Assembly (NCBI GenBank): GCA_034620365.1
Contig: JAQGEQ010000048.1
Location: forward strand, 1,364,001-1,428,000
Length of the DNA: 64,000 nt
Direction of reading: 5' to 3'
Source of the DNA: Pegea sp. RAD2-039
Taxonomy: Eukaryota > Chordata > Thaliacea > Salpida > Salpidae
Position numbers and translations under genes: made by a program. Below the pieces are notes generated by a model. It was not told the DNA's origin and did not search any database. It was given only the letters and a program-made list of their open reading frames with translations. Of the stretch, positions 416-34,170 are shown in pieces (within the stretch, counting starts at the first letter, position 1; the number at the start of each line of letters is the position of its first letter).

Positions 416-2009
416 CTTAAAACTAAATTTAATTATATTAAATAATTTACAATACAAATAATAGATTTTTTATAAAATTTTCTAAGCCAACTATTTTAAT
501 TGTTAATAAACAATTAGTATTATTAATGAATATATTATCATTTATTACAAGCTATCAATAAAACTTAATATAAAGTAACTTAACAAATTAGAAACATAGT
601 AGAAAAATATAAAAATGTTTACTTAAATTTTGATTAAATTTTTCAAAAGCTGAGCAGATGCATCATTTTGCATGAGACTTTGGTATCAGAAAAATTGCTT
701 CTACTTTATCAATTTTATTTAGTATTTCTGTAATTGCTACATTCTACCCACAAGTAAATATTTACATCGAAATAGGCTTAGACATATTGGGGAATTATTT
801 ATTGTCTAACGAGATAAATTTCAAATTGTTCACAGATCTATGGTAAAAAGTTGCTTTAAATTCAATTATAATGTTTCTTGTTATTACTTGAGACTACTAA
901 ATGATAAAAACGTCTTTTGATTATGATATAACTTTCATCCCTTTTTTAAAATGATTGAATGAAATACATGATACATTTTATAATACTATTTTTACATAAC
1001 TGGTGCATTTTTATCAATCTTTACTATATAAACTTGTTTCTATTTATTAAGTAAATTTTACGTGACTCAAATTTAGCCTTTGTGGTTGGATTTAAATCAA
1101 ACTCAATGAAGGAAAGTTAGTGTGATGAGTTATTTGTATAAATAAATCAAACTATAGATGTATTTTAATATAAAGTATTCAATGTTTAATATATCAAGTT
1201 ATAAAATAACTAAGAAGTCATCAAACACAATGGAAAAACTGGTAAAGTAATGTAAAAATGTAGGAGGTAATTACACCGGAATTAAAGGAAAAAATCCCAC
1301 GCTTTCTATTTTTTTGGATTGTGAAATTGTCGGGAACATTTAAATAATCAGATTTGACTGCAATTTCAATTAAACGTGAAATCTTATCCTAATGACGTAA
1401 TCACTTTTTATCTAGCTTCTTACTTTCGATGAAGCTATAAAACTTGAAGACAGTTTTCCTTTAAAGAACCTTTTTAGGTAGAAAGCAAAGAATTTTGATT
1501 TAGTGACCTTCATATAAACTGATTAAATAGATCTAATAAAAATTAAAGAGTCTATTAACTTTTAGAAATAAGAAATTTTAGATAAAAAAAGGTTTAATTA
1601 CATTTAAAAAGTGTTTTATGTTTTCAAATTAGTTTCTTAAAATTTTTCAGCTAATACTCACAAAAATAATTTATTAACTAAAAATATCAAATGTAAATTA
1701 ACTGAAACGATATATTCTAATAAATGGAAGAATAATTACAGCAGATAACTTTTCTATTATATTACAGGAAACCTTATGAACGCCTTTTCAATTGATTAAA
1801 ATGTAATTTTATGAAAATTTTGTTTTCACTTAATGCAGGAAGTTTGACTAAAAAGATTTTAAACGGCAAAAGTTCTGATTACAGTTTTTTATAGTAGTTA
1901 AAAGATACTTAATAAAATGATTTTTGATATTATTATTATTATTTAATAAGTTTACTAAGTAATAAATAATATTTTTTAGTTACTGTAAAATTCAAGCAAC
2001 TGAGTAGAA
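416..2009. other. Intergenic region between two divergent genes
   Basis: About 1.6 kb separates the start codons of the leftward GDH gene and the rightward receptor gene, so it must hold the promoters of both. The sequence is AT-rich with no ORF of note and a short ATT run near 1930-1943. I see no TATA box or initiator that can be assigned with confidence. The receptor start codon at 2010 sits in an A-rich context, and a 5' untranslated exon for either gene could be hidden here. Confidence 0.5.
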
Positions 2010-5000
2010 ATGAAAAAAATCAATTATTTTGTATGTGTGTTGCTTACTGTTTACTCTTTGCAATTTCTTTATACTGAATCAGCAAGACCAAAAAATAGGT
2101 GAGTATTTATATGAATAAATTATCTGATCAACATTGCTTCTAGTTTAATTTTTAAGCAAAAATCGTAATTTTTACAATTCTAAAGTAATAAGTTTAGGTA
2201 GATGAATAAACTGCATAAAAATTATTCAATTCAATATTTTCTAACTTTTGTATAGCGGTGAAAAAAAGCTCAAACATATTTTTTATAATATTACTAGTAG
2301 TAAAACAAAGTTTTAGTGTGATCATTTGACAGTGTCATACGAATTTAGATATATTCGATTATTCAATTCCCATATTAAACATATATAATACAAAATGCTT
2401 GTCGCTTTAGCACTATGACTCTTAAAAGCTTCCCAGCCAACAATGTGCTTAGACTACTTTTGCAATTGTCAATCTCAGTACTTTTGTACTTACCAAATTA
2501 ATATTTTTTTATTAGGATAACTATTTAGTGAATTGTTTGAATTAAGAATACTAAAACACATATTTTTTTCAGAAAACCATCAAAGAATGTTTGGTGAGAA
2601 GCTTCTGTAATAGTAGTTTAAACCTTTTAAAGAAATTTTATTAATTTTTCGACTGAAAATATTTGTTTACTTATTTGAAATCTTTTTCTATTTTTCCTTT
2701 AGTTTGATAATTTTGTTTCATTCGTTTATAGACTAAGAATTGATAAACTTTATTTGTTAAATCGTTGGTAAGAATATTCAATTTACAACAGTTATTTTAT
2801 TTAATTAACTATATTTTGTGCAGCAAAAGAAAAATGGGTGATTTAATTGAAGATGTTGCAAGGTAATTAGGCTTTTGAAATGTGTTGAAATTATACTTTA
2901 TTTTGTCTAATAGACACTAAGTATGTAATAATATCACAAGTTTTTGTTCCTTTGTAGATATCTATCAGATTGTGCTTAAAAGTGTTATGCTTCTTAAATA
3001 AAGTAATTAAGACTAGGATAAAGTTGACATAACAATTTTGCATGTTTGCAATTAACTAATCATTTAAGAAAACAAATATTTTACGAAATATTCAATGTCT
3101 CCTTAAAACTTTCATAAAATATAATACTGATCTTATGCTAGATTACATAACACAGCATTAAAATTACCTTATGCTTTATAACTAGGCAACAGTCTAATGC
3201 TGTTATAACAGGGTGTGTTAGAGATTATTCAAGAGGCTGTCACGAATTGTAAGTAGCAAATGTGATTTTAAAGTTTACTTTTAAACGTTGTATTACAATA
3301 AGATAATATGATACTTTATAGATGCATCTACTACAAGCTAAAACATCTTAGTTCAATAAAGTAAGCATTTGCTTTTATTTAAAATACATTGTATAGACAT
3401 GGCTGATATATCTATATAGCTTATGTGATAGTTTAAAATTCTGTTATTTTCCGAATTGAGTTTGAAGTTCGAAATCTATTTACACAAATTAGAAATAGAA
3501 TTTAATTAATATTTTTTCATATACTACGTTTATTTTTATGAAAGCTTTTAGTGTAAATATTAGAATTTATAATGATTTATTGCATAGATCTAGTTTTAAT
3601 ATTATTCACGAGTTACTTCTCAATTATAAATAGGAGCATAAAACTTTTTATTTCAAAATATAACCTTAATAAAGTAATAATTTAATAGATTAGAGAAACC
3701 AAATAATGTTCACGGTGAATCATGGTGAGTTTAAGCTGTTGTATATCAAAGCTGCTTCGAAAATTACTAGTTGTATTTTTAGCAACTTTACAAAGGCCGA
3801 TATCAACTACTTCAAGTCTACATCCAAGTAAGTCTATTAGATTCAAATGTCACATTGTCATTTAACAAACTGTTCAAAACTAAAAAGGTAGACAAGTAAG
3901 GGCTTCTTTTCAGTCTTAATTAGTCAAAAAAAGACCTTTGCAGGATTTTGTGCTGATAAATGAACAACTTACAACATTAATATGAAGTTACTTAGTCATT
4001 TCAACCTAAAATAGATTTATGTGAAAATAAAATAATTCGCCAGATTTTAAAAAGCAAGATGTTGAAAACATAATGATTTGGAAGATTTTTATTGAACATC
4101 ACAAAGATATTCAATATGATTCCCAAAAAGTTTAATCAGCTACATTACATTCAATACAAAAAGATTTTGATTTTTCTAAATTGACTTATAAAGTTAACTA
4201 AACGTTTTTAAATTTGTTGGGATAATTTTATTTTTTCAAAACCGCAATGGAGTAAAACATCAACATAGTATCACTTTTGTATTTTCGAACATAAGCTCAT
4301 TGCATTAGATTTAGCGGTGTTTTGAAATACTGCTTTACATTGATTAAACGATGTTAAACTTTTTAATAATAATGACTCGTTATATAGAGTTTTATTCAAA
4401 TTATTAAAGCGACTAACAACAGCGATAAGTATACTAACGATACGTGCTACCCACAACACAACCTATTACCAAATGACAACTGTTTATACGAAAATGCCGT
4501 TTCACATTTACGTCAGCGGCAAAATACATTACTGTTATTCCACAGGCTCTATTAGAAAAAAGCTTCACAAATCTGAGTTACTAAATAAAAATTGAAAGTA
4601 GAAAAAGATAAAGAAAAAATATAAAGTTGAAAAGATTTCGTATATCCTCTTCTTTGATAAACAAACTTCAATAACTTAGTCTTTAAAAATTTCAAAGTCT
4701 TTGATTATTGAGCCCTATAAATAATATGATACCAGGCGACCAGACTTGACTCAAACTGAAAAACTAGTTAATTCAATTTATCAAGTTAAAATTAATAGCA
4801 TTCAACAAGATATTATAATTCATTGTTCTAAGTCCAAACAAGATATTTTTCAACTGCAACTGAACACGTAATTTCTCTGAACTATATTTCAGAAGTCAAA
4901 CAGGTGAACAGCGAACGTATTGTAAAATTAAACTCAGCAAGCCCGCTTGCCAACAAAAGTAAGTGACCTTCACCCAGTCTTATTTATAGTATAATTCAGC

Positions 5001-8000
5001 TGTTGACGTTTAGGTGTATGGCAGCATTTCGTGGAAACACTCAGCTTCGAATGTACCAGTATGCAATCAGTTTTTAATTTAAAACTGTTAAATACCTTAA
5101 TTTTTATTGCAAAGATTATAAAAGTTCCATTAAATATTTCCATAGCTTTGTAAATTACATATTTGGAGTTAGTAAAACACTTTTAGCAGCTTATTTATAC
5201 TAAAAGCCTCCATTTGTATACTTTAAAACTACAATTATTTTTTACGACTTCTTTATTATTTCTTATAGAAGATTACCTCCTCGACAAGTTAGCTGGTAAG
5301 CCAACTAGGTGAAAAACAGTAAGTTTAATTAAACGATTATCTTACATTTGACAGCACAAATGAAACATTCAAAGATTTAAAAGGATTAAAGTATTTCGTG
5401 TATGTATAATATCTAATAATCTATTTTGCTAGTACCAATTACTTTTAAATTTTTTTTACAAAAATACTTTTTTTTTTTCTTTTCAGTAGTTAGAACTTAT
5501 TATCAATAGTTTAAAACTTGAAGTTAAAAAGTTATTAGAATTTTAGCCTTGTGCTCTTCTATTAATTTGGTAGATTATTATGAATACTTATCTATAAGAT
5601 ATTGCTACCAATAAAGTATAAGCTTTTTATTTGATATTAACTTAAATAACATCTCAATCACATGACAGTTGATTATTTGTTTTTTCTCTAAATAAAGTTT
5701 ATTTACTTTTTAGGCCAGAAATCTTTGAAATGTGTACTACTGCTCTAACAGGGCACTCTCATTGTAGTGCAAGGTAAATATTTAATAAACTGATTGATAG
5801 ATTTCTTTCAGATTTGCAAAACTTTCAGATGTATTTTGACAGAATGGAATTCAATGATTAGTCAAATACTCAGGTGAAAATTCAATTACTAGTTTGTAAT
5901 TTATTGCTATGACATAACTTATGTATTTTGATATTCTTGATTCAAGTATTTAATGTACTCCCGATGTACTTAATTTAAGAAATTTAGTTCTTTCATTTTA
6001 CGTACTAAGTATAAACATAGATACAGCAATCTAACCCAGAAGAATGTTTTCTCATGATTTTTTGACTTAAACTTTCTTTTTTAAGTATAAGTTTTAAAAC
6101 TTTATCAATTACTTCAGCGACGTCGACATGTACTTTATGGAAGCTGCTATGGTTAATAAAACAACATCACAAAAGATTGGGTAAGTAAAACGTTTTTAAA
6201 GAAAAATAAATTTCATTTTAAGTAACTTTTCATCCTAAAATTTTCAATTTACTTAATGTTTGTTAAGACTTTGATATAGAAGCAAACACAAAATTTCTTA
6301 AAGTCCAAAAACGTTGAGATTGGCTTATTTCTATAAGTCTTCTCATCCAAAAATTAATTTATTTTTAAGAGATAACTTAAAAGAACTTCAACATTTTACT
6401 GAATGGTGAGTTTAAATATCCATTTTTTTCAATAAAACGTTTCATAAGTTATTCTCTGAAATTTTTTCTTCTACAGCAATTTCCCACCTCAATATCTTAA
6501 TTTACATGGCCGGTAAGAGTCAACAATCTTCAATAAAATACTTTTAGTTAAGATTTCAAAAGTTATAACTAGGTCGTTATTTAAAAAAAAATAATTAGTT
6601 TTAGCTTTTAAATGACAGATGAACAAAAAATGACTAGATGTAAAATTTCTTAGTTGGAAACATATAACATATCAGTTATTACATGTATAGTTTTAAGTTA
6701 TAACCATTCAAAACATTTTGACAGTCGAGTTGGAGAAAAAGTTAATCTGTATTGTCTTTCAAGATATCAGCCAAGCTGTTTAAAACAGTATGATAATTTC
6801 TAATTGTTGGTCAATGTGATAACTTCAAAGTTAAAAAGTTTTCTGTTAAAAACATGAGAGTTAATCCAGCTTGCTTTTATTTATTAACAGCATTTTGACT
6901 TGTATTTTTTTCACAGATGTTTCCGAGCATATTTATTAAAAATATTTGAGAGGATAAAACAGTGAGTAATGCATTGACAATAAATTCAATGAGAAATTTA
7001 TTAATACAATAAGTTTTTTGAGCTTGATATGTCTGGTTAATATTATTTCCAAGATTATAAATGCATCAACTTTTATTTACACAATCTTTAAATGATAGAA
7101 AAGTATTAAAACAAACTTACTTTCTACATCTCTGTTACTATACATATAATATAAAGCTCTGCACTTAAAAATATGTTTATACGCTGATTTTTTAACAGAA
7201 CATATAATGAATCTACAGAAGAAACCGAATTGAGACTGGTTTTGAAACGCATTACCCATCAACCCACAACTACATATATAACAACTACAACCCGACGTCC
7301 AATTAATTTACCCTCTTTAACTCCTGCAACGACCACCTTTGTATCTTCAACAACTCCTCTTCAAGTTTCAACTTCACTTTCTAGTTCATTATCCACGAAT
7401 TCACCTCCAACTGCTTTTGTTGCAACATCAACTTTATCAACTAACACATTTTCAAATAAAAAATTAAACTCATCTCTTTCGCTTTCTGTGACTCAAGCTT
7501 CTGCTCCCACAACAATAAAATTGTCAACTTCACTTACCCCATTAACAACAACATCATCAACTTCATCTGTGCCTTTAACAACAAAATCTTCATCTTCATC
7601 TGTTCCTTCTAGAACAAAGTCTTCATCTTCATCTGTTCCTTCTACAACAAAATCTTTATCTTCATCTGTTCTTTCTACAACAAAATCTTCATCTTCATCT
7701 GCTCCTTCTACAACAAAATCTTCATCTTCATCTGTTCCTTCTACAACAAAATCTTCATCTTTACCTGTTCCTTCTACAGCAACATCTTCAACTTCATCTG
7801 TTCCTTCTACAACAAAATCTTTATCTTCATCTGTTCCTTCTACAACAACATCTTCAACTTCATCTGTTCCTTCTACAACAAAATCTTTACCTTTATCTGC
7901 TCCTTCTACAACAAAATCTTTATCTTCATCTGTTCCTTCTACAACAAAATCTTTATCTTCATCTGTTCCTTCTACAACAAAATCTTCATCTTCATCTGCT

Positions 8001-11000
8001 CCTTCTACAACAAAATCTTCATCTTCATCTGTTCCTTCTACAACAAAATCTTCATCTTCATCTGTTCCTTCTACAACAAAATCTTCATCTTCATCTGTGC
8101 CTTCTACAACAAAATCTTCATCTTCATCTATTCCTTCTACAACAAAATCTTCATCTTCATCTGTGCCTTCTACAACAAAATCTTTATCTTCATCTGTTCC
8201 TTCTACAACAAAATCTTTATCTTCATCTATTCCTTCTACAACAAAATCTTTATCTTCATCTGTTCCTTCTACAACAAAATCTTTATCTTCATCTGTTCCT
8301 TCTACAACAAAATCTTTATCTTCATCTGTTCCTTCTACAACAAAATCTTTATCTTCATCTGCTCCTTCTACAACAAAATCTTTATCTTCATCTGTTCCTT
8401 CTACAACAAAATCTTTATCTTCATCTGTGCCTTCTACAACAAAATCTTCATCTTCATCTGTTCCTTTTACAACAAAATCTTTATCTTCATCTGCTACTTC
8501 TACAACAAAATCTTTATCTTCATCTGTTCCTTCTACAACAAAATCTTTATCTTCATCTGTTCCTTCTACAACAAAATCTTTATCTTCATCTGTGCCTTCT
8601 ACAACAAAATCTTCATCTTCATCTGTTCCTTCTACAACAAAATCTTTATCTTCATCTGTTCCTTCTACAACAAAATCTTTATCTTCATCTGTTCCTTCTA
8701 CAACAAAATCTTTATCTTCATCTGTGCCTTCTACAACAAAATCTTCATCTTCATCTGTTCCTTTTACAACAAAATCTTTATCTTCATCTGCTACTTCTAC
8801 AACAAAATCTTTATCTTCATCTGTTCCTTCTACAACAAAATCTTTATCTTCATCTTTTCCTTCTACAACAAAATCTTTATCTTCATCTGTGCCTTCTACA
8901 ACAAAATCTTCATCTTCATCTGTGCCTTCTACAACAAAATCTTCATCTTCATCTGTTCCTTTTACAACAAAATCTTTATCTTCATCTGCTACTTCTACAA
9001 CAAAATCTTTATCTTCATCTGTGCCTTCTACAACAAAATCTTCATCTTCATCTGTTCCTTCTACAACAAAATCTTTATCTTCATCTGCTACTTCTACAAC
9101 AAAATCTTTATCTTCATCTGTTCCTTCTACAACAAAATCTTTATCTTCATCTGCTCCTTCTACAGCAACATCTTCATCTTCATCTGTTCCTTTTACAACA
9201 AAATCTTCAACTTTATTTCCACCTTATCTTTCATCTACACCTAATGCTAACTTTACAACATCTTCAAAGTATTCGAATTTCACCTCAACTAAGGGCTCAC
9301 CAATTTCTTCTTCTGTTGCACGCTCTTCTGATTATAGAACCACATTCAAAAATCAAATCGACCACAAAAATCCAAGCAAAACTGTCTTTTCATCGACTGG
9401 ATTTATTAAGTAACTTCTTCTAATATTTTTTGATGTAAAACCTCTGAAGATTATTATGATTGCTTTTTCTTTGAAACTTCGTTTTTGGGCAGTTCTCCAT
9501 TGATAGAGTCTTGTACGTTACAAATATTTTGCACAAGTTCCGTATACATCAACTGCAACCATACAACTTTACTTTCGTGTCAAGAATGCAAGTATGAATC
9601 TGAATTTGATTCTTCACTTTGTCAATGTTCAATTATACAATGCTCACAGATAAGTATATGCCCAATCTAAATTTACAAAAAATTTTTTCATAGTGGGACT
9701 ATTTTTATTATTTGTATCTGTTTTCTTATATGGCTTAGCAGCACTATTATCATTGGATGTATACTGATTTTTCGAAAAGTTTGGAAAAACAAAATAATCC
9801 GAAGGTCTTATATAAATGCTTTTATATATGCTTTGACCACTTCTGATTTACTTTCTGGTTAGTTCTATTCAATACTAATAGCATTCAGAAAACATTTTAC
9901 TTTTAATTTTTAAAGGTATATTCATTTTGGTTGTGAGTGTGCCACGTGCTATTTGGAGTTTGAACAAAACAGTCTTTGAACTAAAAGAAGTAGAAAACCA
10001 AATTAGCCAAACGGTTGCAGCAACTTTAGGAATAACATTTCTTTTTCTATTCTTGTCTAACCTTTATATACTTTCTTGGATTTCGGTTACAAGATTGTTT
10101 GTTATATTTTCTTCGTGGAAAGAAAGAAAATATAAAGAAGCTATTTCATTAACTATTTTGTGTTGGATTCTAGCATTAGTGGTGTCTATTACTCCAAGTA
10201 AATATTTTAACAATATATAAAAATTGTAAAACTCCTATTTAAATTAGCTTGTAATGTTTTAGAATAAACGATAAAGTTGTTTACAAAGAATTTTTTTAAC
10301 GCTTATGAAATTATTTCTGGTAGTTTTTTAAACTTTTGAATAATTTTTTTTCAGTATGGGCCCCTTCTATGATGACTATTGCTTATGAAGACAATTTACT
10401 TCTGTATTCATTCTCAGTAACAAAACCAACAACTGAATTTTACTTATTACTGGTTGCTTTCCTTATCTTTCCATTCATTATAATGGTAAGTGTTTTATCA
10501 AATAACATTTTTGTGAATTCAAATAACTAACGAAATTTTCAGTTATGCTCTACACTTGCATCTCTTATGTACATTTCGCGTTTTAAGTTGTACAAATTAA
10601 ATGGGTCAATACTTCAATCAGAAGTTCTTATATTGAAAGAGCAGAATATTACAAAGTATATCAGCATGACAGTGTTTGGATTTTCTTGTGTAACATGTTA
10701 GTAATAATGTAACGTTTTAAATTATATAGAAGTAAACGCTCCAACCTATTCAATGCTTAGTTTCACTTAATTATTTCACTCCAAGTAAGTTTCTAAATAT
10801 TCATTTTGAGTTATAAACTAAATATTTTTAAAACTTGTTATAAACTTAACTAATAATTTAATTAATTTTTATCTTCAAAACTTTACATAGATGTGATGAA
10901 TAAAAGTAGTTAACTTTGAATCGAAAGTCTAAAATTATAGCCTAAAATTTATTGATTCTTAAATTGATATTCTCTAAAAAACAAAAATTTGGATATTTTA

Positions 11001-11675
11001 GATAAGTTATTTTATATATATCTTAAATGTTGTTCCATTATACCATTACTTATGTAGAGATAAAATAGTAAAAAAAATGTATAAACTATTTGCATTTTAC
11101 CAAAAAGTTAAGAGAAAGTTGTCAATATTACTGGCTATTGATATTATTTAATAGTTATTAATTCTATAGTTTAAAATTATTAAGAATTATATAAACTTAA
11201 TTAAATCAAAACCGTTTATTGTATGATACAGTACCGTTTCTCGTTTACCTGAGTATTGCAAATTCTTTGTCTGTTTCCTGTTTTTCTAATTCTGCAGCTC
11301 GTATAACACTATTCATAATATTTTCGTCTCGAAGGTGAGTTTTAAGTTTTTATTCAAATTAAAACATAAAATGATTGGAAATATTAATGACATTAAGATT
11401 GTAAGGTACTTTTTTGACAAATGTTTTTATTATGAAATCAATTTAGAAGATTGAGTAGTTACTGAGTTACAACTACTTCATTCAATTGTAATGTTGCTTA
11501 TATTGCTGATATTTTGTGCTATCATGGTACACTGTAATCTTATATGATAAATTTATTTTTCAGTTTGATCAATCTACTTATCAACTACAAATATAGAAGA
11601 TTTTTTTATACTTCTCAAGAGTCGATAATATTTGAAAACAACTCTGTGATACCCTACAGTTGCACAAAGGCATAA
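2010..11675 (+). CDS. Microexon-encoded, mucin-stalked rhodopsin-like 7TM receptor
   Basis: I assembled 24 exons: 2010-2098, 2573-2593, 2824-2862, 3186-3248, 3322-3360, 3689-3724, 3783-3827, 4893-4958, 5014-5058, 5269-5295, 5714-5773, 6118-6180, 6370-6405, 6477-6512, 6725-6787, 6917-6961, 7199-9409, 9493-9591, 9694-9857, 9916-10197, 10355-10485, 10543-10696, 11232-11334, 11564-11675. They total 4029 nt (1342 residues) with one open frame. Residues 1 to about 24 are a signal peptide ([20 protein letters not shown]). Residues 30-258 form a cysteine-rich ectodomain, and 258-994 a Ser/Thr-rich mucin-like stalk. A short linker with five cysteines follows, then seven hydrophobic helices. Helix 2 carries [15 protein letters not shown], like the class A N..L..xxDL motif; helix 3 ends SVTRLF where DRY is expected; helix 4 has the conserved Trp; helix 6 has a Pro; helix 7 has NSAARITLF in place of NPxxY. 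The expected role is a heavily O-glycosylated plasma-membrane receptor. Ligand and family are unknown. Exons 1-16 are inferred from splice signals and frame alone. Confidence 0.72.
7560..9210 (+). repeat. Coding minisatellite, 33-bp unit (11-residue mucin repeat)
   Basis: About 50 tandem units of 33 bp encode variants of [11 protein letters not shown] or [11 protein letters not shown] inside the large receptor exon. Units are nearly identical at the DNA level, not only at the protein level. A second-order pattern exists: the variant unit beginning [11 protein letters not shown] followed by [11 protein letters not shown] recurs at about 8460, 8757 and 8955, spaced 297 bp (9 units) and 198 bp (6 units), which indicates recent block duplication. 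The density of Ser, Thr and Pro is typical of O-glycosylated mucin stalks. Lys at every unit gives the stalk a regular positive charge. Confidence 0.95.
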
Positions 11676-12473: not shown

Positions 12474-13862
12474 CTACTTTCTTCTGGATTTATATTTAAT
12501 CTCAGCACACCATGAAGTTAAACTGCGGACAGAATGATCAAAAATATTGAAAGAAATCTCATTAAAAAGCTGTTGAACTGCATGAAAATCGTGAAGTGTT
12601 CCAAAAATATTCTTCTTTAAGTCGTAGATGTTGACAATAAAGGAAGATCTCACTGGATAGTTCACTTCTTCGACCATTTTACAAGTTGCTTTCAACGGAT
12701 TAACTGCCAACAGCTGACATTGTTCGATTCCATCTTCTCGTGAAACTCTATGTACAACAATCAAACCAGATGAAGTACTACAGCAGAGTAATCTTACATT
12801 GAGAGGACTATTAAATGCAATCTTCTGAATCAAGTATCCTGTTTGATAACTCCAAATAAGGATATGATTTACAGAACATCCAACAATCGCTTCTGATTGG
12901 CCGTTGAGTGAGCACAACGAGTTAATTGGTTCAGTAGCTGACACAAGCTCACTAGACTTGCTCAGTTTGTCACGTGACCAAATGTGAAGCGAAACAGTGT
13001 GCTGATAACTGATGCAGAGTTCTCCTTTGCCGATTGGGACTACGTCAGAGACATTTATGGGGATGTTGAAGATGTTCATGAATGGTTTCTGATCAACAGC
13101 CAGTGAAAAAGAACAGATCCTTACACTGATGCTGTTGAAGAGAAGAAGATAAAGACGAGAATCACATCTGGTTCGAGATGAAATCCAAAACAAATGCTGA
13201 TATCCAGTAGCGTAACCGAGCTTAAAGTCGCACCACTCGCCGCGTGTGCAGTCATGTATGACGAGGATCTCGTCTTCGGTGATAGTGGCGATGTGAGGAA
13301 GAGCAACTGCCACCACTAGAGGGACAAGTTGTTTAGACAAAGGTGTTTTTTTTTGTGAGGAAGGCGTTGAAGAGATCATATTGAGTTGGGAGCTATTCCT
13401 TAGATGCGAGTGGGGCTTTTGGGGCGTTTTATTGTCAATATGTTTAAATAACTTAAAGAAATCATCTTCAGATTTCATCTCAGAAATTGATTTAGAGTTG
13501 AAAGTTGGTTGCTGTTTTACAGGAGACAGATCTAAGCTGTGAAGATTATCGGATTTGAAATGGGATGAAGAGTAAAGATCACTACAAGAATGATCTTCAA
13601 AAGTGTCTGATGTTTCGAAAAGATCAATATCTTCTTTGTCTCTTTTGTAAATGGGAGACGGCTTAAGTGAAGATCGAGAGGTTTCAACAAATTCTATTAA
13701 TCCTGGAGGCAAGAGAAAATCCTTGGGACTTTTTTCTGTGCATAATTCTCGTAGTAGTTTTGGGGAAATTGGGGGAAAAAACTTCCATTTTCTTGCTTTC
13801 TTTGGAGTCCGCATACTGATTTCAGCTGCTGAAAATTTTCTCTTTCCGTTTCGAAGTGACAT
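12474..13862 (-). CDS. PALB2: PALB2-like beta-propeller protein (single exon)
   Basis: A 462-residue single-exon protein. I chose the ATG at 13862 (MSLRNGKRKFSAAE), because upstream in-frame sequence to 13988 is Phe/Ser-rich and looks like leader. The N-terminal 170 residues are basic, then acidic and Ser-rich, with a nuclear-type cluster (RTPKKARKWKFF). The C-terminal 290 residues resemble the PALB2 WD40 domain: LVVAVALPHIATITEDE, then AIVGCSVNHILIWSYQTGYL followed by IQKI, close in pattern to the vertebrate 'MNxxVIWNLxTGxLLKK' blade, then QLLAVNPLKATCK matching 'QLIVINPKT'. PALB2 links BRCA1, BRCA2 and RAD51 in homologous recombination. No N-terminal coiled coil is visible. It may be lost, or lie on an upstream exon I did not find. 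The last blade looks divergent. The assignment rests on remembered motif patterns and is moderate. Confidence 0.6.
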   Translation of the reverse strand: MSLRNGKRKFSAAEISMRTPKKARKWKFFPPISPKLLRELCTEKSPKDFLLPPGLIEFVETSRSSLKPSPIYKRDKEDIDLFETSDTFEDHSCSDLYSSSHFKSDNLHSLDLSPVKQQPTFNSKSISEMKSEDDFFKLFKHIDNKTPQKPHSHLRNSSQLNMISSTPSSQKKTPLSKQLVPLVVAVALPHIATITEDEILVIHDCTRGEWCDFKLGYATGYQHLFWISSRTRCDSRLYLLLFNSISVRICSFSLAVDQKPFMNIFNIPINVSDVVPIGKGELCISYQHTVSLHIWSRDKLSKSSELVSATEPINSLCSLNGQSEAIVGCSVNHILIWSYQTGYLIQKIAFNSPLNVRLLCCSTSSGLIVVHRVSREDGIEQCQLLAVNPLKATCKMVEEVNYPVRSSFIVNIYDLKKNIFGTLHDFHAVQQLFNEISFNIFDHSVRSLTSWCAEIKYKSRRK

Positions 13863-14139
13863 TAAAATAAAATTAGCTGAAAAATTTGCTGAAAAGTAAA
13901 TGAAGTTAAAAGAAGAAAAACAAGGTGATGATGATGATTTAAACCAAGCTAATTGGCAAAGGTTCATGATAATAATATTGAAAAACATAGAAATATTTCT
14001 AATTTGGCATTTAAAATTTCGTCTAAAATATGTATAAACACGTTGTGTAGAGTATTGTGCTAAGTTTCACCAAGCATTATTTCAAAAGCTGTTTATAAAT
14101 TGCATTGATTTCTAATTTTCGAAGATCTCGATGAAACCA
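13863..14139. other. Short spacer between two co-directional single-exon genes
   Basis: This 277-bp AT-rich spacer lies between the PPAT stop and the chosen PALB2-like start, both on the minus strand. It must hold the PPAT 3' end and the promoter or leader of the downstream gene. An in-frame extension of the downstream ORF covers 13863-13988. Confidence 0.5.
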
Positions 14140-15699
14140 TCACCAAAGTAATTGAGCAGGGTAGTTTCCCGTCAAGCAAGCTGTGCAATGACCAGTTTCA
14201 GTTTGAAAATGAGCTCCTTCACTTGAAGATTTCTCTTTTGAAACACCCTCTTCATGTGCAGGACCTCCTACAGCATTTAACAATCCTGAAGTTGATAGAT
14301 ATTTGACAGAATCAGCACCTAAAAACTGAGCAGTCGATCCAGAATTGAGATTGTTAGCAAGTAGTTCACTCGATGTAGGAATATTTATTCCCATATAACA
14401 AGGGAACTTAACAGGGGGCGAAGCGATTCTAACATGAACCTCAGCAGCTCCACCTTTACGTAACATTGCAATGATACATTGCATTGTATTGCCGCGAACT
14501 ATTGAATCATCTACAAGTACAATTCGTCTACCAACTACATTATCTGCAAGAACTCCAAACTTTTTCTCAATAGCAAGTTTGCGCAAACGCTGAGTTGGTT
14601 TGATAAATGTGCGACCCACATAGTGATTCTTAGCAAGAACGTCTTCATACGGAATACCTGATTGGCGCGAATAGCCGATAGCTGCAGGAGTTGCACTTTC
14701 AGGAACAGTGCTTACAACATCAGCTTGAACAGGTGATTCGATCGCTAATATGATGCCAGAATTTCGGCGGACTTTATAAACACTATTACCTTGGTATTGA
14801 CTGTCCATTCTTGAGAAGTAGATGTATTCAAATATACAAAATGCTGAAAATTGGCTACAATCAGGTCTTTGTACAATAGCTCCCATGGACTCGCAGCCAT
14901 TTTGAGAAACACAAATCACTTCACCAGGTAGAACTTCACGGACATATTCAGCTCCAATTGATTGAAAGACACAAGATTCCGAAGACACAATCCAAGCTTC
15001 AACTGACCTTTTATTTATATTTTCCCCTAAATTTTGAACGCTGATTGGTTGTAAAACACGACCAACACATAATGGCCGATTACCATAAGGGTCTCGAGCA
15101 GCATAAACTTTACCAGCATGTAGTACTAATAACGAATATGAAGTTGGTGATCTTTGCATCAATTTTTTTATTCGTAAGGCGATATCAATAGATTCATCTT
15201 CACTTTCAAGGGGTATACAAAGAATCTGTGTAAGAAGTTCACTGTCTGATTGCGTTGATAAGCCAACGCCTCTTTCAAAGATTGCTTTTTTTAACTTGTC
15301 TTTATTAACAAGTTCACCATTATGAGCCACAGCCATGGAACCATATCTCATATTAACCACAAATGGTTGACAATTGGTTAATTCAGAGCGACCAGCAGTT
15401 GAATAACGATTATGACCAATACCAGCAACACCTGTCAACTTCTTTATATCCTCATTTTTAAACACTTGGGATACTAATCCCATGCCTTTGTGAACATTTA
15501 AAGGCTTATGAGGGTCTACTTCACCAGTAACAATTCCAGAACTTTCTTGACCTCTATGCTGTAAGCCTACTAGACCTAAAACTATGTTTGAAGCAACATC
15601 AAGGTTAGATGAATCACTAGAGCAAGATACACAAGCCATAACCCCACATTCATCTTTTAATTTATCTTTTTCTGTTTGATTTTCACTTAAAGAAAGCAT
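14140..15699 (-). CDS. PPAT: Amidophosphoribosyltransferase
   Basis: Catalyses the first committed step of purine synthesis (PRPP + glutamine to 5-phosphoribosylamine + glutamate + PPi) in the cytosol. The 519-residue single-exon ORF matches the family over its whole length. A short propeptide precedes Cys18 (DKLKDECGV), the N-terminal nucleophile exposed by autocleavage. The glutaminase domain has LGLVGLQHRGQESSGIVTG and AVAHNGELVNKDKLK. The phosphoribosyltransferase domain has the PRPP loop RIVLVDDSIVRGNT. All four cysteines expected to bind the 4Fe-4S cluster of this type are present (FCIFEYIYFSR, FPCYMGINIP, GHCTACLTG). I chose the start at 15699 by analogy with the short vertebrate propeptide. 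An in-frame ATG at 15741 would add 14 residues. The lack of introns is odd beside its intron-rich neighbours. Confidence 0.96.
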   Translation of the reverse strand: MLSLSENQTEKDKLKDECGVMACVSCSSDSSNLDVASNIVLGLVGLQHRGQESSGIVTGEVDPHKPLNVHKGMGLVSQVFKNEDIKKLTGVAGIGHNRYSTAGRSELTNCQPFVVNMRYGSMAVAHNGELVNKDKLKKAIFERGVGLSTQSDSELLTQILCIPLESEDESIDIALRIKKLMQRSPTSYSLLVLHAGKVYAARDPYGNRPLCVGRVLQPISVQNLGENINKRSVEAWIVSSESCVFQSIGAEYVREVLPGEVICVSQNGCESMGAIVQRPDCSQFSAFCIFEYIYFSRMDSQYQGNSVYKVRRNSGIILAIESPVQADVVSTVPESATPAAIGYSRQSGIPYEDVLAKNHYVGRTFIKPTQRLRKLAIEKKFGVLADNVVGRRIVLVDDSIVRGNTMQCIIAMLRKGGAAEVHVRIASPPVKFPCYMGINIPTSSELLANNLNSGSTAQFLGADSVKYLSTSGLLNAVGGPAHEEGVSKEKSSSEGAHFQTETGHCTACLTGNYPAQLLW

Positions 15700-17506
15700 T
15701 TGTAATCTTTTTATATTAGCTATAAAATTCAAATATAGCAACTTGAATGAAATTCAAATGAAAAGTGTACAGTATAAATATTATATGATCAAATTAATAC
15801 ATTAAAAACAAAAGATAATACTTTTTTATGATTACAATTTTAAAACACTTTCAATTATCAATTTCAAAATATACCTAAAATTTAATTTCTAAACTGATAT
15901 TCTGAATGGTATAAACACCATTAATGTAGGTTTTTTGCTTTGCTAAGCAACTTCAAATCATCTCTTAGTAAAAGTGTTGCTATAAAACAAGCCAAGTGGA
16001 TTCATACTAAAATGAGCCAACATACTACTTAATCAAAATGTCTTGGACAGGGTTTAAGTCAGATCAGTTAGTTTACAAAGTTCTAACTTACACACTACTA
16101 AACAGACACATATTCAAAAATTATTAAATTCTATAAATATAAATTAATTAATATCCTTTAACTTAATAACCTTATTAAAGTATAAATAAAAAAAATTATG
16201 AATTCATATAATAAGATAATTTCATATAAATTTAGATTCATATTTTCAGTAACATTAAACAATTATACAGTATATCAAAAAATATTTTTTTTGGAACTTG
16301 CAATTTTTAATTAAATAATAAATTCCGATTAATTGAAAATAAATTATTTCATTAAAATAAATCTACTAATAATAGAAGGACCAAACTTTCTTTAAAAATT
16401 AAACCATCATTTAACTAATATAAATATGTTTTTTAATAATAATAATGTTTAAATGATTAAAATCATTAAAATTTAATTTTTTATTAGATTTTTTTAGACA
16501 TTTAATTAAAAAATTTATTTAAAATAATAATTCTTGTGAAGAACAATCAAATAAACTAACTTTTCAATTAAAAAAAATATTAAAACAATTTTAGAACTGA
16601 AAGATGTTATTTAACAATCATAAAAATATTTAGACTAAAATACTTTTATAATAAATCATTAATTAATTTAAAGACTATGATTAAAGAAAACTAATTTAGT
16701 CTTTTTGAAATATACTATTAACCTTGGCCATATATAAAAAAAACTGATTAAGACCAATATCAAAAAGCAAAATACAACAGACTTGAATTGTTTATAAAAA
16801 AGCCTCTAAACTAATTTTATTAGAGGAATTTTGTTGGTAAACTTATCAGGAAAACCAGTATTGAAATTTGTAGCAAATTTTTTTGTTATTATCCTCTAAT
16901 ATCAAAAAAATTTCTTCCAAGATAGTCTTTATTTATTTCACTGTTTGTTTTAGTGCCATCAACTATGAAAACAAAAAAAAAGGGAAAGTTTTTCCTTTGA
17001 TTGATCATAAAACAGCAAGAAAAGCAACTAAACAGAGGAAATTTAAAGCTCCATGTGAAAAACACATTTAATTATTATCTTTCGAGAGACCGCTTCTATG
17101 ATAACAGAAAATCATTTCAGGCCATTTATGCGAAAAACCGATTTCACCTTACTAATATTCATACAAATAAAGCCAACTTTATGAAAGTAAAGAAAGTGAA
17201 AATTTGCATCAAAAAGGCAGAATAAAAAAGCTATGTATATAAAAAACATATCAACTACGAGTTTTGAACGTAAGAAAACATTTTGAGAGCTGCTAAGGAT
17301 GAACTTTGCGTCATAATGTAAACAATAATAACCGTTTTAAATTTTTAATGAAAAAGTTTAACAAATGTCATTCACAAAAACTATGTATAATCAAGTTCCT
17401 AATACTTATTAACTTAAAATTAGCTTTCAATATTATTACAACTAATTACAAGCAACTCTATAAAGCAAATTAATTTTACAGTTTTTGATTAATTCTTATT
17501 TATTTA
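15700..17506. other. AT-rich intergenic DNA, no gene seen
   Basis: Upstream region of PPAT followed by low-complexity A+T sequence. ORFs at 16883-17225 have no recognisable motif or coding bias and are taken as chance. Confidence 0.5.
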
Positions 17507-32621: not shown

Positions 32622-34170
32622 TTTTATTTCAATAAATGCGAAGGAGGGTACCTAAAGAGAGCACCTCCCGCTAACACACATTCTCACAAATAATATCTAT
32701 TAAGTTAGAAATATAGAAAGCGAAAGATGTAATATATGGCATTTCAGTAGTCGTCAAAGTATATAACAGTGAACAATTACATAGAATGCTAATAATATAA
32801 AAAAAGGGAAAAAATCACAGCTTAGAAATGGCAGTGTTGGCAATATTATAACCGTTCAACTTCTGCTTGAACAACACGAGTGATTCTGACATGACAATGT
32901 CTGATGGCAGCTGGTTCCAAGTACTAATTGTGCAGTATGAGAAAAATTTGCTCTGATTAACGTACCAGGTGATATGGGCTTATTAAGATGTAATGTGTGT
33001 CGTCTGAGTTGGTATAACTTGAGAGAAGGACTAATGGAAAAGAAATCATCGTATTTAAAGTCAATTAAATTGTGGATTTTGGAAACATAATTGTGCCATT
33101 TAAAGTCAGGTGATAGGGTAATGCAAAAGTCTATGACCGAAGATATTTGTTGAATAATAAATCCATTAATGGAATATTGGTTTACGGAATTTGCAGCTAG
33201 TTGAAGAGAGAAAGTCATAAGTTTAAACTTTGTTGGCTGGATTCTGAGCTGGTAGTTCATAGGCCAGTTTTCTACAGTGTGCAGTGCAGTTTGAAGTTTT
33301 GAAGGATTACATGATAATAGCTTGATATCATCTGCATACACAAACAGACTGACATCATCTACTGCTACAAGTCATCTGATGAGGTCTTCAATGAAGATTA
33401 AAAAGAGAATGGGACCCAGAACAGAACCCTGAGTGACCACTGGTTACTTGACAAGGAGTAGATGAAGATCTTTAAACACGAGTTTGTTGGATTCTACCTG
33501 ATAAGTAATCTTCAATCCACTTTGTAAAAAAGTCCACTTCATTAAGAAAAGTGAGGTGTAGTGTAAGGGAAGATCTCCGTTTCATAAAGCCATGCTGGAC
33601 ATCAGATGATGCTACATCAAATGACTGGTAATATGATTGTGAATGACATGTTCTTCAGTTTTGCACATAACTGAGGTCAGCGAAATTAGTCTGTAGTTAA
33701 ATGCAGTGTTTCTTGGACCCTTTTTATAAATGTGAGTGATAATAGTTTTTTTTCTAAATTTTTGAAACTATTCTTCGCCTCAGAGTAATGTTAAGGAGTA
33801 TCGATAAAGTTAGTAATACGACGAAGTGGTTTTTATTAAAAACAAAGCAGAAATCTGATCAGAGGCGTTGGAAACTGATGACTTTAAAGAAGAAATAGCC
33901 TTAGTTACCATATCGACCGTTATGTCAAGATCTATTTTCTCAGAGACATTTGTAAGAATGTCGGAGTAGGAAAGAGAAGAAGTTTTGCCATCATCGGTTA
34001 TAAAAACACTATTAAATTGATTGTTTAGTAATTCAGCTTTATTCTCTGGTGTAAATTTACTAATAGAAAATGTAAAAGTTTGTTGATTTATAAAAAGACT
34101 ATTTTCTTCAGTTACCGAAGATTTTCACTGCTCAAGTATCTTAAATTTTTAAGGTTTAATTCTGCGTAGT
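32622..34170 (-). mobile_element. Degenerate non-LTR retrotransposon (LINE) with reverse transcriptase remnant
   Basis: Reading the minus strand from about 34170 down, fragments of a jockey/CR1-type reverse transcriptase appear in order across several frames: SEKIDLDITVDMVTKAISSL, then IITHIYKKGPRNTAFNYRLI, then LTSVMCKTEEHVIHNHITSH, then QHGFMKRRSSLTLHLTFLNE, then WIEDYLSGRIQQTRV, then VVTQGSVLGPILFLIFIEDL, then the catalytic VYADDIKLLSC, then a 3' part. The region between LTFLNEVDFF and TKWIEDYLSG is too short and lacks the FSKAFD-like block, so an internal deletion is present, along with stops and frameshifts. The 3' end carries a TATTGAAATAAA-type poly-A tail at about 32622-32635. The element is dead. 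Confidence 0.85.

Follow-up and report, generated by a model that had tools for sequence, protein, structure and literature searches.

The window analysed here is a stretch of 64,000 nucleotides from Pegea sp. RAD2-039, and on its forward strand our best splice model joins 26 exons into one open reading frame of 1372 codons, running from an ATG at 2010 to a stop at 11675 without an internal stop. The frame successively encodes a signal-peptide-like start, a cysteine-rich ectodomain built of microexons, a mucin-like stalk, a cysteine-rich linker and seven hydrophobic segments. The first-pass annotation had proposed this single-frame layout with the same start, stop and mucin exon (7199–9409), all of which were borne out, but its count of 24 exons and 1342 residues had to be revised to the present figures. 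Exon 1 (2010–2098, strong donor AG|GTGAGT) would supply the signal peptide claimed earlier, in so far as its signal-like character was judged by hydropathy and by eye; it encodes a stretch of 25 residues followed by RPKNR, with the cleavage position guessed.

The path linking the ATG with the mucin exon was obtained by dynamic programming, with weights set by hand after some of the sites had been seen. At an intron penalty of 2 it scored 104.8, against a mean of 17.4 and a maximum of 40.3 in 60 dinucleotide shuffles, and at penalties of 4 and 6 it scored 72.8 and 45.9, against shuffle maxima of 18.5 and 5.9. Since scores of up to 214.0 (mean 47.9) were also reached by 24 stretches elsewhere in the window, some with real genes, the special trait of the locus is the symmetry of its exons rather than the score: all 16 inner exons of the unguided path were multiples of three, compared with 34% in shuffles, and the best six of those 24 stretches yielded 18 of 61. 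In the final model all 17 microexons (21–66 nt) are multiples of three, introns 1–20 are all in phase 2, the last of them lying directly before TM1, and the ectodomain introns measure 55–1065 nt, several being shorter than 100 nt and 55 nt being the minimum over all 25 model introns. Among the hydrophobic starts leading to the mucin exon, position 2010 ranked first; an alternative start at 1106, which is not signal-like, reached the same exon with 104.9 against 104.8, so that the choice of start on score alone is not unique. An in-frame methionine is absent over 923 residues, from 7199 in the mucin exon through TM4 into ECL2, and as spliced here the mucin and 7TM exons therefore cannot start translation alone and need an upstream start.

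The ectodomain, of about 262 residues, comprises four tandem modules of four microexons each (a to d). Module 1 combines 2573–2593 (21 nt), 2824–2862 (39 nt, with its Cys codon split as TG|C), 3186–3248 (63 nt) and 3322–3360 (39 nt); module 2 combines 3689–3724 (36 nt), 3783–3827 (45 nt), 4893–4958 (66 nt) and 5014–5058 (45 nt); module 3 combines 5269–5295 (27 nt), 5355–5399 (45 nt), 5714–5773 (60 nt) and 5829–5873 (45 nt); and module 4 combines 6370–6405 (36 nt), 6477–6512 (36 nt), 6725–6787 (63 nt, weak donor −0.5) and 6917–6961 (45 nt, donor ACA|GTGAGT), with a further microexon at 6118–6180 (63 nt) between modules 3 and 4. Exons b and d of module 3 were lost from the programmed path at penalties of 4 and above, and exons a, c and d of module 4 at a penalty of 6. 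The longer form of exon c in module 1 was chosen by hand, the program preferring 3186–3212, and exon d of that module was added by hand (AG acceptor −0.6, GTAAGC donor 3.6, a multiple of three, fitting the module pattern); because both were set with splice sites and the module pattern as guides, module 1 cannot count as independent support for that pattern.

All 16 ectodomain cysteines fit four repeats of C-x21-24-C-x7-9-C-x3-C, with spacing ranges picked after the data had been seen, and random placement of 16 cysteines gave at most two such blocks in 300,000 trials. In each of the four modules, the intron from a to b falls within the codon for the first cysteine (TG|C). Two disulfides per module are possible, and a module with four conserved intron positions suggests that a microexon ectodomain can arise via tandem duplication of exon sets. 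Pfam returned no family for residues 1–436 of the predicted protein at E ≤ 10, and a search of the ectodomain against the PDB gave only two weak matches (E 0.67 and 1.7). The C-x3-C modules might be compared with GDNF-receptor-like domains, a resemblance that Pfam did not support. Searching the genome with the ectodomain produced 10 matches (all 10 candidates scored): nine fell within the locus itself and the tenth at C59:124373–124753 (E 2.9e-4, 28% identity, four internal stops), which is at most a possible relative; the open frame of this tenth match, used as a query, returned only itself (one of one candidate scored). Over a short stretch, C-x7-C-x3-C is kept there within one open frame. 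A DNA search with 2000–7250 yielded at least 77 matches (40 of 350 candidates scored) at the locus itself and at an interspersed repeat within one intron; beyond these there were just two short matches with E ≥ 3.

The mucin exon encodes about 737 residues, 60% of them Ser or Thr, and contains from 7545 to 9207 a 33-nt tandem repeat with a unit of 11 residues; the stalk is likely to be glycosylated and extended. Through a weak donor (TAA|GTAACT at 9410, −0.68) it is joined to the juxtamembrane linker exon (9493–9591; acceptor GGGCAG, 3.57; donor CAA|GTATGA, 1.22), which contains five cysteines; its donor at 9592 was picked for restoring the frame, with TM1 then in frame. A hydropathy scan of the C-terminal part revealed seven hydrophobic segments, divided among exons for TM1 and the start of TM2 with TTSDLLSG (9694–9857, modest acceptor −0.04), the end of TM2, TM3 with SVTRL and TM4 with P4.60 (9916–10197, modest acceptor −0.56), ECL2 and TM5 (10355–10485), the end of TM5, ICL3 and the start of TM6 with F6.44 (10543–10696), the end of TM6, ECL3 and the start of TM7 (11232–11334), and the end of TM7, a helix-8-like basic segment and the C-terminus CTKA with the stop (11564–11675). 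According to alignments, with numbering assigned in this analysis, the class A residues D2.50, R3.50, W4.50, P5.50 and P6.50 are kept, the first two within the TM2 and TM3 motifs just given. Absent are D/E3.49 (TRL replaces DRY), C3.25, any cysteine in ECL2, W6.48 (T) and N1.50 (C in the chosen register); NPxxY occurs nowhere in the sequence, and several registers of TM7 fit 7.49–7.53.

Pfam at E ≤ 10 assigned the 7TM unit to no family, 7tm_1 and 7tm_2 included, and the PDB gave no match. GAIN and GPS were not found by Pfam at E ≤ 10 in residues 1–436 and 953–1372, in agreement with the earlier remark that neither is visible before the helices, and a class B or adhesion identity was rejected on the lack of GAIN/GPS and of a 7tm_2 match. 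A plain sequence search of the same genome with the 7TM unit (E ≤ 10) recovered only its own locus (six matches, 17 of 17 candidates scored). Against a profile of seven class A receptors of this genome the unit scored 56.7, whereas 150 block shuffles reached at most 35.5 and the reversed sequence 12.6. The top profile match was to the L023-type receptors (61.2, maximum of at most 25 shuffles 32.5), spanning residues 120–290 of 347 and thus TM3–TM6, and lower scores were obtained with the LDLa-type class A profile (41.5, shuffle maximum 24.4) and the L028-type profile (36.8, shuffle maximum 27.5). Scores that did not exceed those of shuffles resulted from an amine/peptide receptor set (22.1 versus 25.2) and from the single receptors L024 (18.5 versus 20.0) and L040 (18.3 versus 25.2). 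The class A traits noted previously are thus upheld by the profile match to the genome's own class A receptors, but not by Pfam 7tm_1, and the motifs are degraded; the 7TM unit appears to be divergent and class A-like, an assignment resting on this profile comparison.

All eight L023- and L028-type 7TM exons tested carry an AG acceptor of matching phase immediately ahead of TM1, and a signal-peptide-like start with a Cys-rich exon upstream was clear at four of the eight tested loci. Large ectodomains thus occur on further class A receptors of this genome, and the layout does not stand alone. The L023-type receptors resemble the present gene in having the nearest 7TM profile and, at the hits tested, a phase-2 intron directly before TM1. 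They differ in that L049, the one joined model scanned, matches Pfam 7tm_1 (2e-22) and also Srx (7e-8), in that their 7TM is a single exon whereas it is split over several exons here, and in that the upstream paths examined show no mucin stalk. A relationship between the four-cysteine modules and the L023-type ectodomain was not supported, with a score of 11.3 against a maximum of 20.1 in 100 Cys-fixed shuffles. The genome also shows TTAGGG arrays, a trait that argues against nematodes and most arthropods, and a COX1 search gave no match.

We propose, with a probability of about 0.7, that the locus forms a single gene, encoding a surface receptor that is derived from class A and carries a mucin stalk; that a single gene is present is, taken by itself, highly likely. 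A secreted Cys-rich mucin ending at the TAA at 9411–9413, followed by a separate 7TM gene whose own first exon went unrecognised, would agree with the weak 9410 donor, with the stop directly behind it (read-through gives STGFIK-stop) and with the secreted proteins encoded by schistosome microexon genes in the part of PMC10526429 consulted. Such a pair of genes is nevertheless improbable, as just 83 bases separate the mucin and linker exons, the frame and phase 2 are continuous across a good acceptor at 9493, and neither the linker exon, the TM1 exon nor the intron between them has an in-frame ATG ahead of TM1. It is very hard to credit a division further upstream, into an ectodomain gene and a mucin-7TM gene whose transcript would start within 6961–7199 or at an unseen exon: the mucin exon is devoid of in-frame Met, and a good donor after 6961 (4.1) is paired with an equally phased, likewise good acceptor at 7199 (3.2), although the ectodomain could end by read-through into the intron behind 6961 and the start at 1106 scores marginally above that at 2010.

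Because the 9410 donor is weak and read-through stops at once, a secreted mucin form is possible, and one locus might yield two products, with alternative donors at 9410 or 9592/9654 giving a shed or membrane-tailed mucin besides the receptor. Use of 9654 would shift the frame, which then ends in one hydrophobic tail (a stretch of 30 residues), and the interval 9592–9653 adds three in-frame cysteines with a mildly coding-like score of +2.5, but 9654 scores poorly as a donor (−4.0) and would leave an intron of 40 nt, below the model minimum of 55 nt, so that we regard two products as a minority possibility. The loss of N1.50, D/E3.49, C3.25, W6.48 and NPxxY, together with the failure of the plain search to find a close 7TM paralogue in the genome, could also be the mark of a decaying gene; this is most improbable for a frame open through 26 exons and 1372 codons with its hydrophobic segments intact, and those L023-type receptors that were read by eye likewise have no Cys at 3.25.

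For the preferred reading, a single receptor gene, the four-cysteine modules would fold into a compact head, and O-glycosylation would make the repeat a stiff rod of sufficient length to lift the head beyond the glycocalyx. The first-pass annotation's suggestion of a sensor or adhesion receptor at an outer epithelial surface may be added as a conjecture. The head might bind a soluble ligand or a surface, and this contact could be relayed via the linker to the helices, which might signal via a G protein through the retained Arg3.50. Judged from sequence, the odds are even that the head is the binding part and slightly short of even that the helices signal through G proteins, and it is rather unlikely that signalling was lost with the receptor being kept as a surface anchor. 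The symmetry and shared phase 2 of the head exons would allow modules or single microexons to be spliced out in frame: among exons 1–19, 151 of 171 forward joins leave the split codon free of a stop, the 20 stop-making joins all begin at type-a exons, and omission of any complete module, one at a time, yields no stop. It is doubtful that splicing diversifies the head in this manner, dropping modules or microexons while stalk and helices stay in frame, to give many heads per receptor gene after the fashion of microexon genes; the regular modules open the idea of a combinatorially spliced head to a direct test.

Schistosome microexon genes, in the portions of PMC10526429 consulted, encode a signal peptide and then continue in numerous short exons (6–81 bp), most of them multiples of three, and their products are secreted. 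The present gene is similar in its signal-peptide-like start, judged by hydropathy, and its unbroken series of three-fold microexons, but its frame runs on through the mucin exon into the seven helices, and its head consists of regularly repeated four-cysteine modules. For microexon genes, introns of 0.1–5 kb between the microexons would be expected; the ectodomain introns here measure 55–1065 nt, several of them below 100 nt. Isoforms that skip central microexons would likewise be expected of such genes, and the exon joins here would permit them. LGRs, relaxin receptors and GRL101 likewise place a large modular ectodomain in front of class A helices, GRL101 being a class A receptor with LDLa motifs in the consulted part of PMC6267866; receptors of this type differ in that no LDLa or LRR match was found by Pfam in the residues scanned here, where a mucin stalk and microexon modules occur instead. 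Within the portions of the literature searched, no mucin-stalked receptor of class A was found, and the combination of a cysteine-rich microexon head, a mucin stalk and a distant rhodopsin-type 7TM appears not to be described there. To our knowledge, mucin stalks on seven-helix receptors are tied to GAIN-bearing adhesion GPCRs, in which GAIN acts by a tethered-agonist mechanism. EGF-TM7 adhesion receptors (the EMR2/ADGRE2 group), named mucin-like and EGF-like in the literature, resemble the present protein in their head of Cys-rich modules, their mucin-like stalk and their seven helices, the stalk, predicted here from 60% Ser/Thr, being the shared adhesion (class B2) trait. The group has GAIN/GPS, the GAIN domain of adhesion receptors being described in the consulted part of PMC8421042, and a class B2 7TM, whereas here neither was found in the residues scanned and the helices are class A-like. 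How a long stalk might signal without a GAIN tethered agonist is the question thereby raised, and a class A-derived receptor bearing a head on a stalk without GAIN would represent a convergent solution.

The spliced ORF at window positions 2010-11675, on the plus strand of C262:1364001-1428000 (64 kb), was confirmed as proposed in the first-pass annotation, with a better exon model that comprises 26 exons and 1372 residues and ends at 11675. The 7TM exons were joined first. The path from ATG 2010 up to the mucin exon was then sought with a splice model whose site weights were set by hand and whose codon log-odds were learned from the 7TM exons and from coding ORFs nearby. At an intron penalty of 2, this model gave 17 exons; by hand, exon 3186-3248 was lengthened and exon 3322-3360 was added, both having usable sites and matching the module pattern described below. 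Acceptor 9694 is in frame only with a linker exon ending at 9591 (donor CAA|GTATGA, 1.22), while splicing from 9654 (donor score -4.03) puts TM1 out of frame and makes the intron 40 nt long. Every one of the final model's 17 microexons is divisible by three and introns 1-20 are all in phase 2, a regularity that is partly a product of frame-keeping choices (the two hand-edited exons and the linker donor).

The real region scored 104.8, whereas 60 dinucleotide shuffles averaged 17.4 and reached 40.3 at most, and its inner exons were divisible by three in 16/16 cases versus 34% in shuffles. Because 24 other window stretches, with real genes among some, reach up to 214.0, with only 18 of 61 inner exons divisible by three in the six best printed of them, the special trait of the chain is its symmetric exons rather than its score. 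The unguided splice model kept 15, 12 and 9 exons at penalties 4, 6 and 8, and the chain as a whole is therefore surer than any single microexon.

The ectodomain consists of four tandem modules with four microexons (a, b, c and d) apiece. In all four modules the first Cys codon is interrupted by the a/b intron (TG|C) and exon d starts with one base followed by a Cys codon, one d exon being hand-added. The 16 cysteines are arranged as four C-x21-24-C-x7-9-C-x3-C blocks, with spacing ranges picked after data inspection; when cysteines were placed at random, none of 300,000 trials yielded more than two such blocks. The intron positions common to the modules point to their origin by duplication of a complete exon set. 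An extra microexon (6118-6180) is located between modules 3 and 4. A PDB search with the ectodomain returned only matches at E 0.67 and 1.7. Contig C59 holds a possible single-exon relative of the module (C59:124274-124753, minus strand; C-x7-C-x3-C); four stops interrupt this stretch, and a genome search with its open frame found no second copy.

The genome (105.7 Mb, 387 contigs) contains TTAGGG arrays, and the region is ordinary gene-bearing DNA, apparently from an animal, since ORFs nearby have matches to PPAT, V-ATPase A, an AMP-binding enzyme, 5'-nucleotidase and a riboflavin transporter. PPAT lies in one uninterrupted frame (14140-15753, minus), adjoined by a frame (12474-14066, minus) whose match to PALB2 WD40 is weak and falls below threshold (19.5 bits; cut-off 27). 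An open piece that matches reverse transcriptase lies at 32856-33371 (minus; PF00078, 9.3e-8). DNA search also located an interspersed repeat of ~184 bp at 4361-4544, within intron 3828-4892 of the gene, with copies on many contigs at 80-95% identity (40 of 350 candidates scored); the end of this repeat recurs on contig C113 in a 42-bp tandem form. At another locus, a glutamate dehydrogenase exon (L055:8777-9073, minus; PF00208, 7.7e-15), with NADP-specific or unspecified enzymes as best PDB matches, looks like the NADP type, which is unusual in animals.

The mucin exon encodes ~737 residues, 60% of them Ser/Thr, and carries a 33-nt repeat at 7545-9207. Methionine is absent from the 923 residues that run from 7199 across the mucin exon, the linker and TM1 as far as TM4, with the first Met in ECL2, and no start in the TM1 frame was found in the 83 nt that separate the mucin exon from the linker exon; translation of mucin and 7TM thus has to begin further upstream. 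Of the starts with a hydrophobic stretch, ATG 2010 ranked best (104.8; next 88.6 and 75.9), and ATG 1106, which lacks a signal-like stretch, reached 104.9 via an 18-exon path. A secreted mucin form is possible, because donor 9410 is weak (-0.68) and an in-frame stop stands directly behind it, which counts against a single gene. One open frame joins ectodomain, mucin, linker and 7TM in the model, and to this extent the earlier interpretation is supported; the class A assignment is less well supported, with no Pfam match for the 7TM and several class A motifs missing.

Pfam gave no match at E<=10 for the 7TM, ectodomain and repeat flanks (the scans covering all but ~516 residues mid-array), a PDB search with the 7TM gave none, and a sequence search of its own genome returned only the self match, in a genome with at least 175 7tm_1 matches (147 of 293 candidates scored). 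By hhalign against a profile of seven genomic 7tm_1 receptors, the 7TM scored 56.7, versus 35.5 for the best of 150 block shuffles and 12.6 reversed. The best group was the L023-type class A receptors (61.2 versus a maximum of 32.5 in up to 25 shuffles; seven sequences, three near-identical, aligned to 7TM residues 120-290 of 347), followed by the LDLa type (41.5 versus 24.4) and the L028 type (36.8 versus 27.5). Shuffles were unbeaten for the amine/peptide set (22.1 versus 25.2) and the single receptors L024 (18.5 versus 20.0) and L040 (18.3 versus 25.2). N1.50, D/E3.49, C3.25, W6.48 and a clear NPxxY were not found in the 7TM; because only some class A groups beat shuffles, the putative class A label rests on L023-type kinship together with D2.50, R3.50, W4.50, P5.50 and P6.50, which are present.

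Seven loci (L023, L025, L026, L029, L031, L033 and L038) form a class A group with a phase-2 intron immediately before TM1 of the 7TM exon, and several of the L023-type group have an upstream signal-peptide-like start and a Cys-rich exon (upstream DNA L048-L051, L054) with the motif ECC..L...F..SW...YLQTLKSW.C..L..EC. A phase-2 AG acceptor just ahead of TM1, matching the gene under study, occurred at all eight L023- and L028-type hits tested. Four of the eight (L049, both in L048, L051) clearly showed the signal-peptide-like start with its Cys-rich exon upstream, one path scoring -3.2; the second L052 hit and L054 had the Cys-rich exon within a longer, doubtful path, L050 had no convincing start or exon, and the first L052 hit, too close to the end, yielded no upstream path. 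No match emerged between the L023-type ectodomain and the 4-Cys modules (11.3, against as much as 20.1 in 100 Cys-fixed shuffles). These class A receptors of the same genome would explain the layout, and in the simplest history such a receptor may have acquired a new head and mucin stalk via phase-2 exon shuffling.

Other ectodomain-bearing receptors occur in this genome. The L024 receptor (L024:1177-2730, minus) is a 518-aa single frame with a hydrophobic start, a ~200-residue Cys-rich ectodomain and a class A 7TM (7tm_1, 3.3e-20). A multi-copy family (C81, C47, C38, C12, C179, C265, loci L042-L047, and others) has long single-frame ORFs with LDLa-like modules ahead of a class A 7TM, with 946-1021 aa in six examined (two incomplete at ends) and at least 11 places with open frames >=900 aa among the matches listed; a Pfam scan of L043 gave five LDLa stretches plus 7tm_1, the other five being judged by eye.

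The anatomy is read directly, and the most likely working is as follows: the head modules may bind a ligand or surface, a presumably glycosylated stalk would hold the head outward, the linker would relay a signal to the helices, and coupling of these to a G protein is plausible because Arg3.50 is kept; any tissue assignment is likewise inferred. Among the papers listed by searches of open-access literature, none described a mucin-stalked class A receptor, a scope that makes this weak evidence of novelty. EMR2-group adhesion receptors have a head and a mucin stalk in common with this gene but differ in carrying GAIN/GPS and class B2 helices, neither found in the parts scanned here. LGR/GRL101 receptors carry class A helices behind modules, as here, but of a different module type (PMC6267866), and the schistosome micro-exon genes have the same exon style, but their products are secreted (PMC10526429).
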